A model generated the notes under the pieces. The model did no database searches, had not been told where the DNA came from, and saw only the letters and a program-made list of their open reading frames with translations. Source: a virus. Taken from it: a stretch of DNA of 25,614 nt. The position numbers were made by a program, and so were the translations under genes. The stretch spans positions 1 through 25,614 of the IMG/VR virus record IMGVR_UViG_3300044678_001989; one strand, written 5' to 3'. This document shows, piece after piece, positions 2,521 to 19,719 of this stretch; positions within the stretch are counted from its first letter, which is position 1; each line of letters opens with the position of its first letter.

Positions 2521-2805
2521 TTACACGAAATGCTTAACTATTGCTACCGTCGCCAAAATTGACCAACCGATATTAAAGTATATAATGGTTGGGAGAGTTT
2601 TTATCGTAGAAGTAAAAATTAAAGCCAAACTAGACGCTAAAGCAAATACAAATAGCCACCACCATTGTTTGCCAAATAAAAGACCTGGAAAAATAATTGC
2701 TAACTTAGTTGAAAAAGCCCAAAACTCAATCGTATTAGTTTTATTCCAATATTTTTTTTCAAATAAATTTTTTGTTATTGTCCATATATCTTTATGATTT
2801 ATCAT
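2521..2805 (-). CDS. Small membrane protein, 94 aa
   Basis: The N-terminal ~30 residues are polar and charged. They are followed by hydrophobic segments at about 33-45, 47-67 and 71-91, separated by short loops (FGKQWWW, TSTIKT), giving two or three membrane helices. It overlaps the end of the halogenase gene by 14 bases, so it is translated with it. No family is recognised. Being coupled to the halogenase it could place a product or enzyme at the membrane, but this is speculation. A 120-base gap (2401-2520) follows, in which I see nothing convincing. Confidence 0.6.
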   Translation of the reverse strand: MINHKDIWTITKNLFEKKYWNKTNTIEFWAFSTKLAIIFPGLLFGKQWWWLFVFALASSLALIFTSTIKTLPTIIYFNIGWSILATVAIVKHFV

Positions 2806-4384
2806 TGTGAATATTTTCCTTTAACCACTGATACATTGTTGGCGAAGCATCTGCTTCTTCTTGCCAAAGTTTACGGAATATTTCCCATGCTTCCCATGTA
2901 TTTTTGCAATATTCATAATAGTCTATGCCATCCCAATGTTGCCATCTTTCTATTGTATTTTTTGTTACTGGGAAATAATTAAGGCCAGTAGCAATACAAT
3001 GAATCCCTCCAATACCATCATATCTTTGGCGATTAATGTGAACCTCTGCAAGGCCTCCAAATCCAGAAACCAGAGAAGGCTCCAATAGAGGAATTTGTGG
3101 CTGGAATGTTTTTTCTGTAATATCTCTCCAATACTGAGTATCTGTTCTATTTGATAGAGCATAATGCTGTGCTACAAATTCTTTAAATTCAAGGTATTGA
3201 AGCCTTGTTTTTGAGTTATAGGCATCTCTGTCCCATTGAGTTATTGTTTCTCGCTCTAAAGTTTTTACAAGTTTATCTAAAAATTCATGCACAGTAAATA
3301 AACCATTTGACTCTAAAGGCTCAATAAATCCTGCAGCAAATCCAATTGCTACAACATTTTTAACAAATGTGCGTTTATGAATTCCAACTTTAAATTTAAT
3401 ATATTTAAATTCTAGCGCTTCCACATCACGATCTGGATTATGAATAGTCATTTTGTCTGAACGCAGATGGTCTTTAAATTCTTTTAGGGCATCTTCTTTA
3501 GATATATGTTTATCGCTAAATACATAGCCAGTCCCAATTCTTTCCCATGATGGAATATTCCAGACCCAGCCATTATTGATAGCCGTACAGTTAGTATAAG
3601 GTTCCATCTCTTTTTCTTTATCGGTATAAGGAATACGAGTAGCCCATGCACTGTTATTTGGAAGCATATGACCAAAGTCATCCCACGGCTCTTCTAGTGC
3701 TCCTTCAAGAAGCATAGATTTAAATCCTGTACAGTCAATAAATAAATCTGCTGTAACATGTGTGCCATCGGTTAATACTAGCGACTCAATTCCTGACTCA
3801 TTTGTATTTACTGACTCTACTGTTTGAGGAATTACAGTTACTCCACGAGGAATGCAATAGTTATTCTTTAACCATAGGCCAAATTTAGTAGCATCAAAGT
3901 GATAGGCAACATCTTGCTTAAAGTTAAAGTTACCTAGTTTACCTGATTCATTCCAAGATAGTTTATTTTGTTCCGCTAAAGTAAGGGCGGGAAAGAATGT
4001 ACGAGCATAGTCTGCTACATCTAGATCTGAAAATTTGGCTTTCTTTACATACCAGTCATTAAGACCATTAACTGTTCCATCTAAAAATACTTTGCCAAAT
4101 GGATAATGAAATCCTCCTGCATCCTTCTTATAAAAGTCTGTAAACTTAATAGACATTTTATATACGGCATCTGTTGCTGGCATAAAGTCTTTCTCGTCAA
4201 TGCCGATCCAGTTTACCCATCCTGTAATTCCTCCAAGCGTTGATTCTCCAACGCCAATGATGGGGTAATCGGGGGATTCAATAACTACAATTTCTTTATC
4301 TGGAAATGCTCTAATCATAGACGCAGCCGACATCCAGCCTGCAGATCCACCGCCAACTACAACAATTTTATTTAAAGTAATCAA
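2792..4384 (-). CDS. Flavin-dependent tryptophan-halogenase-like enzyme, 530 aa
   Basis: Enzymes of this family use FADH2, O2 and halide to form HOCl or HOBr, which travels to a catalytic lysine and halogenates an aromatic substrate. The FAD-binding motif GGGSAG is at residues 11-16. The likely catalytic lysine is K80 (MSIK), matching K79 of PrnA. The WxWxIP motif that marks halogenases over monooxygenases is present as WVWNIP at 273-278. The segment F353-I-E-P-L-E358-S-N-G361 matches the FxPxSxG-type motif, with E358 at the place of the PrnA catalytic glutamate. Length is normal for the family. The start is TTG (4382-4384) behind the ribosome site GGTGGGGG. No flavin reductase is seen nearby, so the host would supply reduced flavin. 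A cyanophage halogenase (VirX1) that iodinates diverse substrates is the known precedent. Confidence 0.88.
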   Translation of the reverse strand: MITLNKIVVVGGGSAGWMSAASMIRAFPDKEIVVIESPDYPIIGVGESTLGGITGWVNWIGIDEKDFMPATDAVYKMSIKFTDFYKKDAGGFHYPFGKVFLDGTVNGLNDWYVKKAKFSDLDVADYARTFFPALTLAEQNKLSWNESGKLGNFNFKQDVAYHFDATKFGLWLKNNYCIPRGVTVIPQTVESVNTNESGIESLVLTDGTHVTADLFIDCTGFKSMLLEGALEEPWDDFGHMLPNNSAWATRIPYTDKEKEMEPYTNCTAINNGWVWNIPSWERIGTGYVFSDKHISKEDALKEFKDHLRSDKMTIHNPDRDVEALEFKYIKFKVGIHKRTFVKNVVAIGFAAGFIEPLESNGLFTVHEFLDKLVKTLERETITQWDRDAYNSKTRLQYLEFKEFVAQHYALSNRTDTQYWRDITEKTFQPQIPLLEPSLVSGFGGLAEVHINRQRYDGIGGIHCIATGLNYFPVTKNTIERWQHWDGIDYYEYCKNTWEAWEIFRKLWQEEADASPTMYQWLKENIHNDKS

Positions 4385-5214: not shown

Positions 5215-5227
5215 TAGTATCAAATAA

Positions 5228-5236
5228 TGATATAAT
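5228..5236 (+). promoter_or_regulatory. Extended -10 promoter before the holin-like gene
   Basis: TGATATAAT ends seven bases before the ATG at 5244. No -35 box is convincing at the right distance and no ribosome site follows. Confidence 0.55.
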
Positions 5237-5243
5237 AAACCTT

Positions 5244-5459
5244 ATGTCACCTCAAGATTGGGCAGCGTTTATATTAACTCTTCTTACCATTACAACCATT
5301 GTTGCTGGTGGAGTTCGTTGGCTCGTAAAACATTATTTAAATGAACTTAAGCCGAATTCTGGATCAAGTTTAAAAGATTCCGTCAATCGCTTAGAGGAAA
5401 AAACTGACAAATTATTTGATCTGTTTGTTGAACATCTAAAAGATCATTCTAAGAAGTAA
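5244..5459 (+). CDS. Holin-like membrane protein, 71 aa
   Basis: A single strong hydrophobic helix spans residues 6-28 (after MSPQD). A basic patch (RWLVKH) follows, then a linker and a charged amphipathic segment at about 43-66 with heptad-like leucine, valine and phenylalanine spacing (SLKDSVNRLEEKTDKLFDLF), probably a coiled coil. This layout of one N-terminal membrane helix, a coiled coil and a lysine-rich tail is typical of small phage holins and of the holin-like proteins of many actinophages. No enzyme motif exists. It is separate from the transglycosylase at 11599, so a lysis cassette is not proven. It would act in the cytoplasmic membrane. Confidence 0.6.
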   Translation: MSPQDWAAFILTLLTITTIVAGGVRWLVKHYLNELKPNSGSSLKDSVNRLEEKTDKLFDLFVEHLKDHSKK

Positions 5460-5634: not shown

Positions 5635-5656
5635 ATATATATCTCTAATAATATAA

Positions 5657-5665
5657 TGATATAAT
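5657..5665 (+). promoter_or_regulatory. Extended -10 promoter for a candidate small RNA
   Basis: TGATATAAT ends six bases before G5672, the base that precedes a long hairpin. The predicted transcript would therefore begin with the hairpin itself. Confidence 0.5.
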
Positions 5666-5671
5666 TTTTAC

Positions 5672-5722
5672 GCTGGCACCTAGATTCTACCCCCACCCCA
5701 CTGCGTCTAGGTGTCCAGTTTT
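5672..5722 (+). ncRNA. Candidate ~50-nt hairpin RNA with C-rich loop
   Basis: CTGG (5673-5676) plus CACCTAGA (5677-5684) pair with TCTAGGTG (5706-5713) and CCAG (5715-5718) with one bulged T (5714), giving a 12-bp stem. The 21-base loop is very C-rich, CTACCCCCACCCCACTG at 5687-5703. A TTTT run at 5719-5722 closes it as an intrinsic terminator would. The element has its own extended -10 promoter exactly one helical start-distance upstream. It could be an independent small RNA, or simply the terminator of the holin-like gene. No known RNA family is recognised with confidence. Confidence 0.5.
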
Positions 5723-5732
5723 ATTTATTTAA

Positions 5733-5741
5733 TGGTATAAT
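5733..5741 (+). promoter_or_regulatory. Extended -10 promoter before gene 5750
   Basis: TGGTATAAT ends eight bases before the ATG at 5750. The spacer holds no ribosome site, so a leaderless or near-leaderless message is predicted. Confidence 0.55.
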
Positions 5742-5749
5742 CAATTATT

Positions 5750-6151
5750 ATGTGTGCTCCTACAATAGAAAAATATGGTGCTTCTCCAGCAAATATTCAA
5801 TGGACTGTTGTCCGTGGAGATAGCGCAACATTAAAAATAGAATTTTTTGAAGATGATGAAATTACATATTGGGACACAGATGGTTGGACTTTTTTATCAA
5901 CCTCTTATGACCCAACAGGGGATGTTCTTGACCAACTCACAGTAACCGAAGAGGCAGGGTACGTAACAATATCTGTTCCAGCAGAGACTACACTTAACTG
6001 GGGAAGTCAATATAAATCTGTTGTATCAGAATTACCATTTGACCTACAGGTTACAATTCCTGGCGGTAGTGGAGAGCAAGACACAGTTTGGACTCCAGTA
6101 GTTGGAACAATTTGTGTGCTTGGTAATGTTACCCCTGGAGGCAGTTTATAA
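5750..6151 (+). CDS. BppU N-terminal-like tail/baseplate protein A, 133 aa
   Basis: The key segment WTVVRGDSATLKIEFFED at residues 19-36 is shared in form with the proteins at 6996 (YYRGDTAEF) and 12286 (WTVVRGDTASF). An Ig-like beta pattern then ends in VWTPVVGTICVLGNV. This layout is that of the N-terminal domain of baseplate upper proteins (BppU_N type), which anchors receptor-binding proteins to the phage tail. Length fits one such domain with no C-terminal fibre. Its TAA overlaps the ATG of the next short gene (TAATG at 6149-6153). It is the first gene of a promoter-led cassette. A structural anchoring role is inferred. Confidence 0.6.
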   Translation: MCAPTIEKYGASPANIQWTVVRGDSATLKIEFFEDDEITYWDTDGWTFLSTSYDPTGDVLDQLTVTEEAGYVTISVPAETTLNWGSQYKSVVSELPFDLQVTIPGGSGEQDTVWTPVVGTICVLGNVTPGGSL

Positions 6152-7346: not shown

Positions 7347-7921
7347 TGGTAGATGTATTACTTAATACAGAAGATGTTGTTGTTTTGGGACCACCAGACT
7401 CAGTTGATGTTTTAGTAGATATTGGTCCACAAGGAACTCGTGGTAGTAGAATTATAGTTGGCTCTGGAGAACCAAACGCACAAACATCTAGTGGAGTGCT
7501 ATTAGGAACAACCTTAATATTAAATGATATATATATACAAACCGATCCTGGAGCAAACTATGGATATATGTATCAGTATGTTTCTCAACCTGGAGGAAAT
7601 ACCTGGGTAGAAGTTTTAAATATAAGCCCAGCAATTTATTCTGCAATACAAACACTCTCCTTTTCTTCTGGATCTGCATCTACAACTATTCCAATATCAA
7701 ATATTGTTACTGTGTCTGGGTCACCACTTGCTGCTTCAAATTTTAATGTTCAGTTTCAAATTGAAGGGGCAAATCCTATTGCAGCATCAATGGAGATCCC
7801 TGCTTTGGCTGGGGCTGGAACAAACCTAGTAATAAATTTTGACGCAGTTCAATACAGTGGGGGTAGTTGGTCTGCATTAACTGGAAGCAAAACTGTACAT
7901 TTATTTATATCTATAGTTTGA
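7346..7921 (+). CDS. Tail-fibre protein with short collagen-like segment, 191 aa
   Basis: The N-terminus is acidic with a repeated VDVL theme. It leads into GPQGTRGSRI at about residues 27-36, a remnant or minimal collagen-like motif as found in many fibre proteins. A module with DIYIQTDPGANYGYMYQYVS follows, then a GNTWVEVLNI strand. The C-terminal ~80 residues (from SFSSGSASTTI) look like a beta-rich tip domain. Translation is coupled by TAATG to the BppU-like gene, so the pair could form an anchor plus fibre. Receptor binding is inferred. Confidence 0.6.
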   Translation: MVDVLLNTEDVVVLGPPDSVDVLVDIGPQGTRGSRIIVGSGEPNAQTSSGVLLGTTLILNDIYIQTDPGANYGYMYQYVSQPGGNTWVEVLNISPAIYSAIQTLSFSSGSASTTIPISNIVTVSGSPLAASNFNVQFQIEGANPIAASMEIPALAGAGTNLVINFDAVQYSGGSWSALTGSKTVHLFISIV

Positions 7922-8436: not shown

Positions 8437-8864
8437 TGCCAACATCATTTAATTACGATGGTAAACCAGGGTACATTTATAATGCAGCCGATGACACATG
8501 GTACGAATTATCTGGTAAAACAGACACCTCTGGAACTTTTGAGTGGGCTGGACCACATACACATTTATCAGCAGCCACCTTTATAGATCATCTTGTTGGA
8601 AAAAAGGGTATAAATAATTATCTTAATCCATCAGCAAGAGATTCATCAATTACCTCTCCAGTTGCAGGATCAATATGTTTGGTAAGACAAGATGGTAGTG
8701 GAAACACAATTCATCAACTTCAATTTTATAATGGATCAGCATGGATTCCTTTTATTCCTGTACAAGCAGGAAATGCTGGAAAAGTGTTGCAAACAGATGG
8801 TATAATAACATCATGGCAAGACGCAAGCGGACTGCCAGAAGTATTCTTACTAATGGGAGGATAA
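8436..8864 (+). CDS. Putative fibre protein with HTH metal-type motif, 142 aa
   Basis: It begins with a WxxY-type module (GYIYNAADDTWYELSGKT) and a PHTHLSA segment at about residues 40-46, which resembles the HxH metal-binding sites inside trimeric fibre tips. A second module (SPVAGSICLVRQDGSG, LQFYNGSAWIPFI) follows. The last 30 residues (GKVLQTDG, SWQDASG, then FLLMGG) match in layout the end of the large fibre at 15870 (GQVLQSTG, QWST, then FMLIGA), so both share a C-terminal module. It is TAATG-coupled to the gene at 7957. Confidence 0.55.
   Translation: MPTSFNYDGKPGYIYNAADDTWYELSGKTDTSGTFEWAGPHTHLSAATFIDHLVGKKGINNYLNPSARDSSITSPVAGSICLVRQDGSGNTIHQLQFYNGSAWIPFIPVQAGNAGKVLQTDGIITSWQDASGLPEVFLLMGG
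8798..8806 (+). promoter_or_regulatory. Intragenic extended -10 box ahead of gene 8869
   Basis: TGGTATAAT sits inside the 3' end of the 8436 gene, 62 bases before the ATG at 8869. It is identical to the cassette promoters, but the codons Asp-Gly-Ile-Ile would also produce it by chance. Confidence 0.35.
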
Positions 8865-9219: not shown

Positions 9220-10284
9220 ATGGCTGTAACAAAACCTAGCACTTCTAATACAAGCGGACTTAAGTATCGTGATGCATCTGCAGGCGGAACAAAGGTGGCG
9301 GATGTACCAGGAGCGCCAACCATTGGAACAGCAGCGCTAGTTGCTGGGGATCCCTCAGTAGATGTACCATTTACAATAAATCCAGTTGGTGGAATTCCAA
9401 CATCTTTTACCGCAACATCAAGTCCTGGTGGGTTAACTGGAACAGCATCATCGTCTCCTGTAAGAGTTTTAAATTTAAACCCAGGCACAAGTTATACATT
9501 TACCGTAACAGGAACAAATTCAACAGGAACTAGTCCCGCATCTTCGGCATCAAACTCTATAACCATTCCTCTTCCAGTTCCTCCAACTACACTTCAATAT
9601 TTAGTAATTGCAGGTGGCGGATCAGGCGGAGGCCCAAATAACAACGCTGGCAACCAAGGCGGAACATCTAGTTTTGGATCAATCACAACTGCTGGTGGCG
9701 GTGGAGGTGCAAGTTCTAACGGCGGTGGCGGTGGTGGCTGTGGCGGAGGTGGCGGTTACAGTTGTTACTTTGGTCGTGCTTTCGCAGGTGGTCCAGGAAC
9801 AGCAAATCAAGGTTTTGATGGTAGTGGTGGTAATAACAATAGCCCTGGTGCTGGTGGTGGCACAGCGTCATCAGGCGGAGCAGGTATTGCCTCTAGCATT
9901 ACTGGAACATCAGTAACATATGGACAATATACTGGCTCTAATCCAGGTTTTGGTGGTCCTACTGGCGGACACAACTCTTGTGACACAGGTGGCGGTGGAG
10001 GTGCAGGTGGTCTTAGACGAAATGATGGATCACCTTCAGGTAGAAACTCTGCTCAAGAGGCAACCTTTAACGTCACAACAGGAACAACATATAACGTCGT
10101 TGTTGGTTCTGGCGGTGTGAATAATGCATACCCTGGAAATAATGGCGGTAAGGGGAAGGTCATTATGAGGCATGCTTCATCTGCAGCCACTGGAACTGTA
10201 ACAGGAAGTCCTACTATTACAATTGCAGCCCCATGGAAAATTTATGAATGGACTGGAAACGGAAGCGTGGTTTGGAATGCCTAA
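9220..10284 (+). CDS. FN3 plus glycine-rich adhesin-type fibre protein, 354 aa
   Basis: Residues ~30-118 form a fibronectin type III-like domain (VPGAPTIGTA, FTINPVGG, then LNPGTSYTFTVTGTNSTGTS). From ~130 to ~325 the chain is a glycine-rich sheet protein: QYLVIAGGGSGGG, runs of up to six glycines, two Cys-containing loops, then YNVVVGSGG and KGKVIMRH. This is the layout of phage glycine-rich tip domains, comparable in principle to the polyglycine adhesin gp38 of T-even phages. The variable loops between glycine strands are the likely receptor contact. The ATG follows AAAGGGAGAA. The end overlaps the next gene by 8 bases. Confidence 0.75.
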   Translation: MAVTKPSTSNTSGLKYRDASAGGTKVADVPGAPTIGTAALVAGDPSVDVPFTINPVGGIPTSFTATSSPGGLTGTASSSPVRVLNLNPGTSYTFTVTGTNSTGTSPASSASNSITIPLPVPPTTLQYLVIAGGGSGGGPNNNAGNQGGTSSFGSITTAGGGGGASSNGGGGGGCGGGGGYSCYFGRAFAGGPGTANQGFDGSGGNNNSPGAGGGTASSGGAGIASSITGTSVTYGQYTGSNPGFGGPTGGHNSCDTGGGGGAGGLRRNDGSPSGRNSAQEATFNVTTGTTYNVVVGSGGVNNAYPGNNGGKGKVIMRHASSAATGTVTGSPTITIAAPWKIYEWTGNGSVVWNA

Positions 10285-11547: not shown

Positions 11548-11589
11548 AAAAAATACCCCCAAGGCATAAAGCCAAAGGGGGATTTTTTT
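11546..11589. terminator. Bidirectional intrinsic terminator
   Basis: CCCCC (11556-11560) pairs with GGGGG (11577-11581) and inner GGC (11563-11565) with GCC (11571-11573). An A run precedes the hairpin and a T run follows, so it can stop transcription from both the plus-strand sulfotransferase and the convergent transglycosylase gene. Confidence 0.75.
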
Positions 11590-11598
11590 ATTTAATTG

Positions 11599-17685: not shown

Positions 17686-19719
17686 ATGTCAGAAACCGTA
17701 TTCTCTTTTCGTCTTTCAGATGAATTTGTAAATAAATATAATAACACTCCATCCCCATTTGGATTCTCAGATGCAGGGTCTAACTCATTAGGAGAAATTA
17801 CATTTATTCGTACATATTCTCGTGTTAAGGAAGATGGAACTAAGGAACGCTGGCATGAAGTTTGCCGTCGTGTAATTGAGGGTATGTATTCAGTACAGAA
17901 GAACCATGCCAAAGACAATCGCCTACCATGGAACGACAACAAGGCACAGAAGTCTGCTCAAGAAGCATTCCAAAGAATGTTTGAATTAAAGTGGACTCCA
18001 CCAGGTCGTGGTCTCTGGGCATTTGGTACTCCTATGACTATGGAAAAGCGCAACTCTGCTTCCCTTCAAAACTGTGCAATGGTATCAACTCGTGACCTTG
18101 ATCGCAATGACCCAGGAGCCCTATTTGCATGGGTAATGGATGCATTGATGCTAGGTATTGGTGTAGGGTTTGATACTCTTGGACAAGACAAGCAGATGTC
18201 TATTTATGCCCCTACAGAGCCAGCCTCAGTATACGAAATCCCAGATACTCGTGAAGGTTGGGTAGAATCTGTTCGTCTTTTGATTAATTCATTTTTACGT
18301 CAGAATCAACCAGTTCAAGAGTTTACCTATGACCTTATCCGTCCTCTAGGAGCCCCTATTAAGGGCTTTGGGGGCGTTGCAAGCGGTCCACAACCACTTA
18401 TTGATCTCCATACACGTATTCGTAATGTAATTGGTTCTAGAGCAGGAGAAGCCTTAGATAGCCGTGCCATCGTAGATCTTGTTAATCTCATTGGTACATG
18501 CGTTGTTTCTGGAAATGTTCGTCGTTCTGCTACTCTTGCTTTGGGTAAACCAGAAGATGAAGGTTTTATTAATCTTAAGAATCCAGAAGTATTCCCAGAA
18601 AGAAATTCATACGATCCAGAAAAACCAGGCTGGGCATGGATGAGTAATAACTCAATCGCTGCTGAAGTTGGAACAAAGTATGAAGACTATGTAGATTTAA
18701 TTGCTGACAATGGAGAGCCAGGATTTATCTGGCTTGATGTTGCTCGTGATTATGGCCGTCTTGCAGATGCTCCTGATTACAAGGACACTCGCATTATGGG
18801 CTTCAATCCTTGTGCGGAGCAGCCATTGGAGTCGTACGAACTTTGTACTCTTGTAGAAGTTCATCTAAACCGACATGAATCCAAGGAGGACTTCCTCAAG
18901 ACATTGAAGTTTGCTTATCTTTATGGAAAGACTGTAACTCTTATGCCAACACATTGGCAACAGACAAATGGTATTATGCAGCGTAATCGTCGTATTGGTA
19001 CATCTCTTACAGGTATTGCTGCATTTGCTGACCAACATGGTCTTCCAGTTATTCGTGAGTGGATGGACGAAGGATATAACACAATTCGTAAATACGATCA
19101 TTCATATTCTGAGTGGCTATGTGTTCGTGAATCAGTTCGTGTAACAACGGTTAAGCCATCAGGATCTGTTTCACTTCTCTCTGGTGCTACCCCTGGAGTT
19201 CACTGGGGACCTGGAGGAGAGTTTTATCTTCGTGCTATTAGATTTGGAAACACAGATCCTATGATGCATTTATTTAAAGCAGCGGGGTATAAAATTGAAG
19301 ATGACCTAGTATCAGCAAATACCTCAGTAGTATATTTCCCAGTAGCATCAGGACATAAGCGTTCTGAAAAGCAGGTTAGCCTATTTGAAAAGATTGGTTT
19401 GGCAGCAACTGCTCAGAAGTACTGGTCAGATAACGGTGTTTCTGTAACTCTATCATTTAATAAGGAAGAAGAGAAGAAGTTTATTGCTCCTGCACTAAAT
19501 ATGTATGAGGGGCAACTAAAGGCTGTATCTTTCTTGCCAATGGGTGATAAGGTTTATCCTCAGCAACCGTATACAGAAATTACAAGAGAACAATACAATT
19601 CTTACGTTGGCAAAATTGGCAAAATTGATTGGTCTGCTATTTATGATGGCAAGGATAATCTTGATGCTGAGTCTGAAAAATACTGTTCAACAGATGCATG
19701 TGAGATTAAATTATATTAG
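17686..19719 (+). CDS. nrdJ: Class II (B12-dependent) ribonucleotide reductase, monomeric type, 677 aa
   Basis: It converts ribonucleotides to deoxyribonucleotides using adenosylcobalamin as the radical source, without oxygen or a small subunit. The finger-loop motif NPCAEQPLESYELC at 374-387 gives the thiyl-radical cysteine C376, the acid E378 and one redox cysteine C387. C130 (SLQNCAMVS) is its partner. The C-terminal shuttle pair is C667 and C672 (CSTDACEIKLY), the same CxxxxC spacing as C731/C736 of the Lactobacillus leichmannii enzyme. PSGSVSLLSG is the phosphate-binding region. This close fit points to the monomeric triphosphate reductase type. Placement between structural genes, with its own terminator and promoter, is unusual for a replication gene. 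The host must supply or take up B12. Confidence 0.93.
   Translation: MSETVFSFRLSDEFVNKYNNTPSPFGFSDAGSNSLGEITFIRTYSRVKEDGTKERWHEVCRRVIEGMYSVQKNHAKDNRLPWNDNKAQKSAQEAFQRMFELKWTPPGRGLWAFGTPMTMEKRNSASLQNCAMVSTRDLDRNDPGALFAWVMDALMLGIGVGFDTLGQDKQMSIYAPTEPASVYEIPDTREGWVESVRLLINSFLRQNQPVQEFTYDLIRPLGAPIKGFGGVASGPQPLIDLHTRIRNVIGSRAGEALDSRAIVDLVNLIGTCVVSGNVRRSATLALGKPEDEGFINLKNPEVFPERNSYDPEKPGWAWMSNNSIAAEVGTKYEDYVDLIADNGEPGFIWLDVARDYGRLADAPDYKDTRIMGFNPCAEQPLESYELCTLVEVHLNRHESKEDFLKTLKFAYLYGKTVTLMPTHWQQTNGIMQRNRRIGTSLTGIAAFADQHGLPVIREWMDEGYNTIRKYDHSYSEWLCVRESVRVTTVKPSGSVSLLSGATPGVHWGPGGEFYLRAIRFGNTDPMMHLFKAAGYKIEDDLVSANTSVVYFPVASGHKRSEKQVSLFEKIGLAATAQKYWSDNGVSVTLSFNKEEEKKFIAPALNMYEGQLKAVSFLPMGDKVYPQQPYTEITREQYNSYVGKIGKIDWSAIYDGKDNLDAESEKYCSTDACEIKLY

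Follow-up and report, generated by a model that had tools for sequence, protein, structure and literature searches.

The RegA protein of phage T4 acts at the start sites of phage replication genes and represses their translation. The hairpin RNA described here would do a similar job, as an RNA rather than a protein. Several described RNAs and repeats come close to it. The B11 (6C) RNA of Mycobacterium abscessus represses via C-rich loops that act on a G tract in the 5' UTR of the target (PMC10470900). Lambda OOP, P22 sar and lambda aQ are small phage RNAs that lower a phage gene post-transcriptionally, and lambda PreS (LPR1) is a trans-acting, Hfq-dependent phage small RNA that is linked to DNA replication and targets host dnaN (PMC12197685). 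Cluster K mycobacteriophages carry ESAS, inverted repeats found in many copies directly 5' of SAS translation starts, with spacers of 4-13 bp (PMC3203893).

The hairpin RNA resembles each of these only in part. With the actinobacterial 6C RNA/B11 (RF01066) it has in common a C-rich hairpin loop and, as predicted here, repression through G tracts near the start (PMC10470900), but it has one hairpin instead of two, it is phage-encoded and conserved, and its loop is tuned to one phage gene. OOP, sar and aQ are cis-encoded opposite or overlapping their targets, whereas the hairpin RNA lies tens of kb from its predicted target and would pair over 6-10 nt. Unlike PreS, it is predicted to act on the replication operon of the phage itself. 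Like ESAS, whose function is not known, it is an inverted repeat in an actinophage upstream region (PMC3203893), but it is single-copy, has a promoter of its own and conserves a C-rich loop.

No Rfam family matches the hairpin RNA at gathering score. A relaxed search (E up to 10) returned only hits at chance level, to sbrA (12.9 bits, with 45 needed) and Afu_190, and no 6C, and an Rfam scan of a 107-kb relative gave tRNAs only. The initial annotation had suggested that the element differs from 6C RNA, and this is borne out by the absence of an RF01066 match and by the presence of one hairpin instead of two, between two promoters. No family of this kind is described in the open-access literature searched, and the element represents a new RNA family. 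The computations give a conserved, covarying RNA element, a promoter class, and complementarity between loop and ribosome binding site (RBS) that tracks across phages.

Anatomy of the element and its promoter class

The element is a short hairpin between two promoters. Its parts and neighbours in the window (the whole stretch of 25,614 nucleotides that was analysed) are the following.

5227, 5656, 5732, 6971, 7929, 12267 and 12924, + strand: promoters of the ATGRTATAAT class, just 5' of genes or of the hairpin, without a -35 box
5244..5459, + strand: upstream 71-aa gene with its own promoter (5227-5236) and no translational link to the hairpin
5656..5665, + strand: extended -10 promoter ATGATATAAT of the hairpin RNA, of class ATGRTATAAT, without a -35 box; kept 5' of the hairpin in relatives
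5672..5719, + strand: hairpin RNA, G5672 to T5719, from its fold and from covariation in relatives
5686..5704, + strand: C-rich loop TCTACCCCCACCCCACTGC, predicted antisense seed, from invariant columns and RBS complementarity in relatives
5719..5730, + strand: T-rich tail TTTTATTTATTT, where intrinsic termination probably sets the 3' end, from the sequence and a U-rich tail kept in relatives
5732..5741, + strand: the next gene's own promoter ATGGTATAAT, 8 nt 5' of the ATG, giving a leaderless mRNA; outside the hairpin RNA
5750..6151, + strand: downstream gene, 133 aa, phrog_1084-like, function not assigned; the hairpin's syntenic neighbour

The upstream box reads as an extended -10 (TG-A-TATAAT at 5657-5665, with TGATATAAT ending at 5665), and the sequence upstream of 5656-5665 contains no -35 box. 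A 6-nt spacer, TTTTAC (5666-5671), leads to the stem. The sequence at 5656-5730 confirms the earlier observation of an extended -10 exactly six bases before a hairpin with a C-rich loop, while the details of the hairpin needed adjustment. The stem has 14 bp (9+5) with one 1-nt bulge, not 12 bp. Instead of 21 nt, the loop measures about 19 nt (5686-5704), or 15 nt should an isolated C-G pair form. The terminal T run is present as a T-rich tail, but the run is interrupted. The hairpin folds at -20.6 kcal/mol (MFE z = -4.9), and none of 200 shuffled sequences folds as well. A mechanical terminator scan missed the element, since the loop exceeds 8 nt.

The promoter belongs to a class that otherwise occurs at gene starts. 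The window has eight copies of ATGRTATAAT on the + strand and none on the - strand; the + copy at 8797 lies inside a gene and looks incidental. In 27 related loci, all + copies but one lie 6-9 or 14-29 nt 5' of an open reading frame or before the hairpin, and only two copies are on the opposite strand. The 6-9 nt distance corresponds to leaderless mRNAs, which would be made from about half of the promoter copies in related loci, and the 14-29 nt distance mostly comes with a Shine-Dalgarno (SD) site. Between the -10 hexamer and the stem there are usually 6 nt (32 of 65 versions), and 7 nt in eight more. Since this spacing equals that to leaderless start codons, the RNA is predicted to begin with the first stem base, at or next to G5672.

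Other features of the window were noted as well. The upstream 71-aa gene has 73% DNA similarity in two isolated phages of Planktophila, E7 and F5 (OX376640.1, OX376641.1), and a search of the whole E7 genome found no hairpin. Three proteins with phrog_1084-like domains lie among the structural genes (5750, 6996 and 12286). A tryptophan-halogenase-like gene is at 2792-4384 (-) and a ribonucleotide reductase at 17686-19719 (+). A strong short-loop hairpin flanked by A and T runs, at 11548-11598 between convergent genes, is likely a bidirectional terminator.

Conservation and covariation in related phages

The element is conserved as an RNA structure while its stem sequence is rewritten. Relatives were gathered by a protein search with the next gene's product, which yielded 80 IMG/VR loci. 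In almost all loci that reach far enough, the extended -10 is followed after about 6 nt by the stem with its C-rich loop, and then by the U-rich tail, the second promoter ATGRTATAATC and the ATG. At least 65 distinct hairpin versions have this architecture. The stems differ among relatives (CACCTAG, CCGCTAG, TTCCCAAG, AGTCCCTAG and others), with compensatory changes in all eight aligned core stem pairs. Aligned stem cells are paired in 98.9% of cases, compared with 75.9% after shuffling, and double-change cells number 54, compared with 9.7; slid-alignment controls reach at most 59% pairing. The loop remains C-rich although the stem is rewritten, and among 34 diverse relatives the loop columns C, C, C, C, A and G are invariant. 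By this covariation, the element stands above chance.

A covariance model, R1, was run on 22 phage records, the longest of 107 kb, and finds a single strong copy in 21 of them. A diverged group, class D (L114, L150, L154, L159 and L160), has the loop core AUACCCACC and retains the promoter, stem, tail and next promoter. The class D pattern occurs in at least 120 stretches in the database, and a narrower pattern in 85. One scan of GTDB bacterial contigs gave 23 pattern matches, none with a matching hairpin, and so no host or prophage copy. Hundreds of related viruses of actinobacteria, the latter probably from freshwater, share the RNA gene.

These results bear on the initial annotation, which had proposed a complete minimal RNA gene and a covariance search in related contigs. 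Both the compensatory stem changes and the conserved C-rich loop that the search was to look for are found, and the promoter, its 6-nt distance and the C-rich loop persist together with a stem that covaries. What is conserved is a structured RNA with its own promoter, as shown by covariation and by the promoter class and its spacing. The comparative evidence fits the view that the element is more than a terminator. A GC stem and a T-rich tail are present as in a terminator, but loop and upstream promoter are conserved along with them. Relatives that lose loop and promoter while keeping a terminator, named as the refuting case, are not seen. The one exception, L015, has lost the whole hairpin and retains the second promoter.

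The MENE start site as predicted target

The initial annotation named no target, and the one predicted here goes further than it did. Nine-mers complementary to the phages' own loops adjoin start codons in the genomes of relatives, and one gene family stands out. MENE is used here as a label for an uncharacterised protein of 68-70 aa that starts with these residues (phrog_5189). When the own loop is compared with start regions in 17 genomes, MENE ranks first of 104 gene families (Fisher P 4e-6), with a mean perfect run of 7.3 nt compared with 4.3 (sd 0.6) across all families; when ranked by own-minus-swapped energy it is only ninth. A second high-scoring family, G001_28648, was rejected as an artefact of an internal GTG. 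Cofold energies are uninformative in this setting, since the program cannot pair a hairpin loop with a second strand while the stem stays formed.

MENE gene, example: G005 73041-73253; relatives L367-L446 and Streptomyces phages L591-L595; strongly conserved

MENE is the first gene of an operon of overlapping genes, followed by a 102-aa protein, DnaB helicase, primase and SSB, and it lies tens of kb from the hairpin. Its predicted fold is strand-strand-helix (pLDDT 83), and a PDB search with the predicted structure found no match. Its RBS is non-canonical and complementary to the loop of its own phage, and the predicted pairing spans 6-10 nt adjoining the start codon. Perfect matches of 9-10 nt occur in G005, G030, G046, G064, G062 and G073, and the match is only 6 nt in G002, G003 and G031. 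The window, a 25.6-kb fragment, does not contain the MENE gene; therefore the target case for its own phage rests on kinship. In G006 (L004), which has the same loop as the window, the MENE site is GAAATGGTGGGGACA-ATG, with a 7-nt perfect match (GGTGGGG) and a duplex of -15.7 kcal/mol. Inside the window, the best duplexes with the loop are at 9716 and 9986 (glycine-rich coding sequence) and at 7857, and none is at a gene start.

Loop and MENE site change together between classes of phages. A/B-type phages have the MENE sites GGTGGGGTA-ATG or GGTGGGTA-ATG and the loops UACCCCACC or UACCCACC, and class D phages have the sites GGGTATAA or GGGTATGA and the loops UUAUACCC or UCAUACCC. Own loops pair better than swapped ones (P 0.003 for A/B, P 0.014 for class D, P < 2e-5 overall). 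Within class D, the loop xCAUACCC goes with the RBS GGGTATG and xUAUACCC with GGGTATA in 12 of 13 genomes (P 0.005). This C/U rule was predicted beforehand for a held-out set in which nine of nine genomes fit (combined P 3e-5); G065 violates it. C-type loops sit on a number of stems that differ widely from one another, which speaks for multiple origins. Complementarity to the predicted target start region is conserved and changes along with the RNA, within the limits set by the relatedness of the phages: as these are not independent, all the P values given here overstate certainty and serve as guides.

The portal is about 46% identical to Streptomyces phages. As a natural control, the Streptomyces relatives (Stanwilliamsviridae) have MENE in the same operon with ordinary SD-type sites (GAGGAGG, AAGGAGG). 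In five of them, searched whole, R1 finds no convincing match, only one at chance level (E 0.57).

The main competitor to MENE as target is a real phage small RNA that acts chiefly on other G-rich start regions of phage or host, a phage version of 6C/B11, with the MENE match minor or accidental. C-rich loops readily match many G-rich start regions, and other 9-10 nt matches at start codons exist: GGGTAGAGA-ATGAG in G001 and G018, GGGTAGAGA-ATG in G014 and GTGGGGGTAG-ATATG in G002 (at 26008, 4245, 53989 and 42254 of the oriented records of G001, G018, G014 and G002). None of these sites is kept family-wide; the MENE site, by contrast, persists and follows the loop in A/B as well as in class D. 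Genome-wide, loop matches at start regions show a modest excess (6 nine-mers, with 1.7 expected), and a many-target model is therefore not favoured. This explanation is unlikely overall, and the other matches are possible lineage-specific extra targets.

Proposed regulation and its alternatives

The favoured reading, which the sequence comparisons make probable, is a trans-acting antisense small RNA that pairs with the MENE RBS and represses the replication operon, probably late. The locus would be a stand-alone phage small RNA gene with a product of about 50-58 nt. Driven by the ATGRTATAAT-class promoter, transcription would begin with the first stem base, and the anatomy suggests that the hairpin and U-rich tail would end it. 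The C-rich loop would serve as an antisense seed acting in trans on the MENE RBS. As the pairing adjoins the start codon, ribosome binding should be blocked, and via the overlapping downstream genes the effect may extend to helicase, primase and the whole replication module. The promoter class accompanies structural genes and is absent 5' of the MENE operon (none near it in four genomes checked); synthesis of the RNA thus probably falls in another phase, later on. The result would probably be late negative feedback on the replication operon. Transcription, pairing in cells, repression, and the sign and timing of regulation are what we infer.

Two further explanations do without a distant target. 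A hairpin that merely terminates or insulates between the upstream gene and the next promoter, with an incidental promoter-like box, would account for a GC stem followed by a T-rich tail between two transcription units. It is very unlikely, as it leaves unexplained the conserved C-rich loop, the fixed 6-nt spacing from a phage-class promoter and the covariation of the loop with a distant RBS; in addition, ordinary terminators in the window have short loops (11548-11598 and about 17640), and the relative without the hairpin still has the next promoter. A protein-binding RNA, or a DNA operator, whose loop is read by a phage or host protein and which acts in cis on the next gene fits the strict synteny 5' of the phrog_1084-like gene in every copy seen, but it is the least probable. 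A stem that is free in sequence yet stays paired speaks more for RNA than for a DNA operator. From class to class the loop changes together with the MENE RBS, and the separate leaderless promoter of the next gene leaves the hairpin RNA outside that gene's mRNA.

Few small RNAs of phages have a known target in the phage itself, and uncultured phages such as these are difficult to study. In this case the sequence by itself yields a new and widespread RNA family, a likely start site, a likely target and the base pairs to mutate. The chances seem about even that a large group of actinobacterial phages shuts off translation of its own replication operon late, by means of a minimal hairpin RNA from the structural region that would play, as an RNA, the part taken by protein repressors like T4 RegA, with loop and target site co-evolving tens of kb apart. 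If true, this would be an RNA-based switch from replication to late functions, carried out by one of the smallest possible small RNA genes, consisting of a promoter, a hairpin and a tail.
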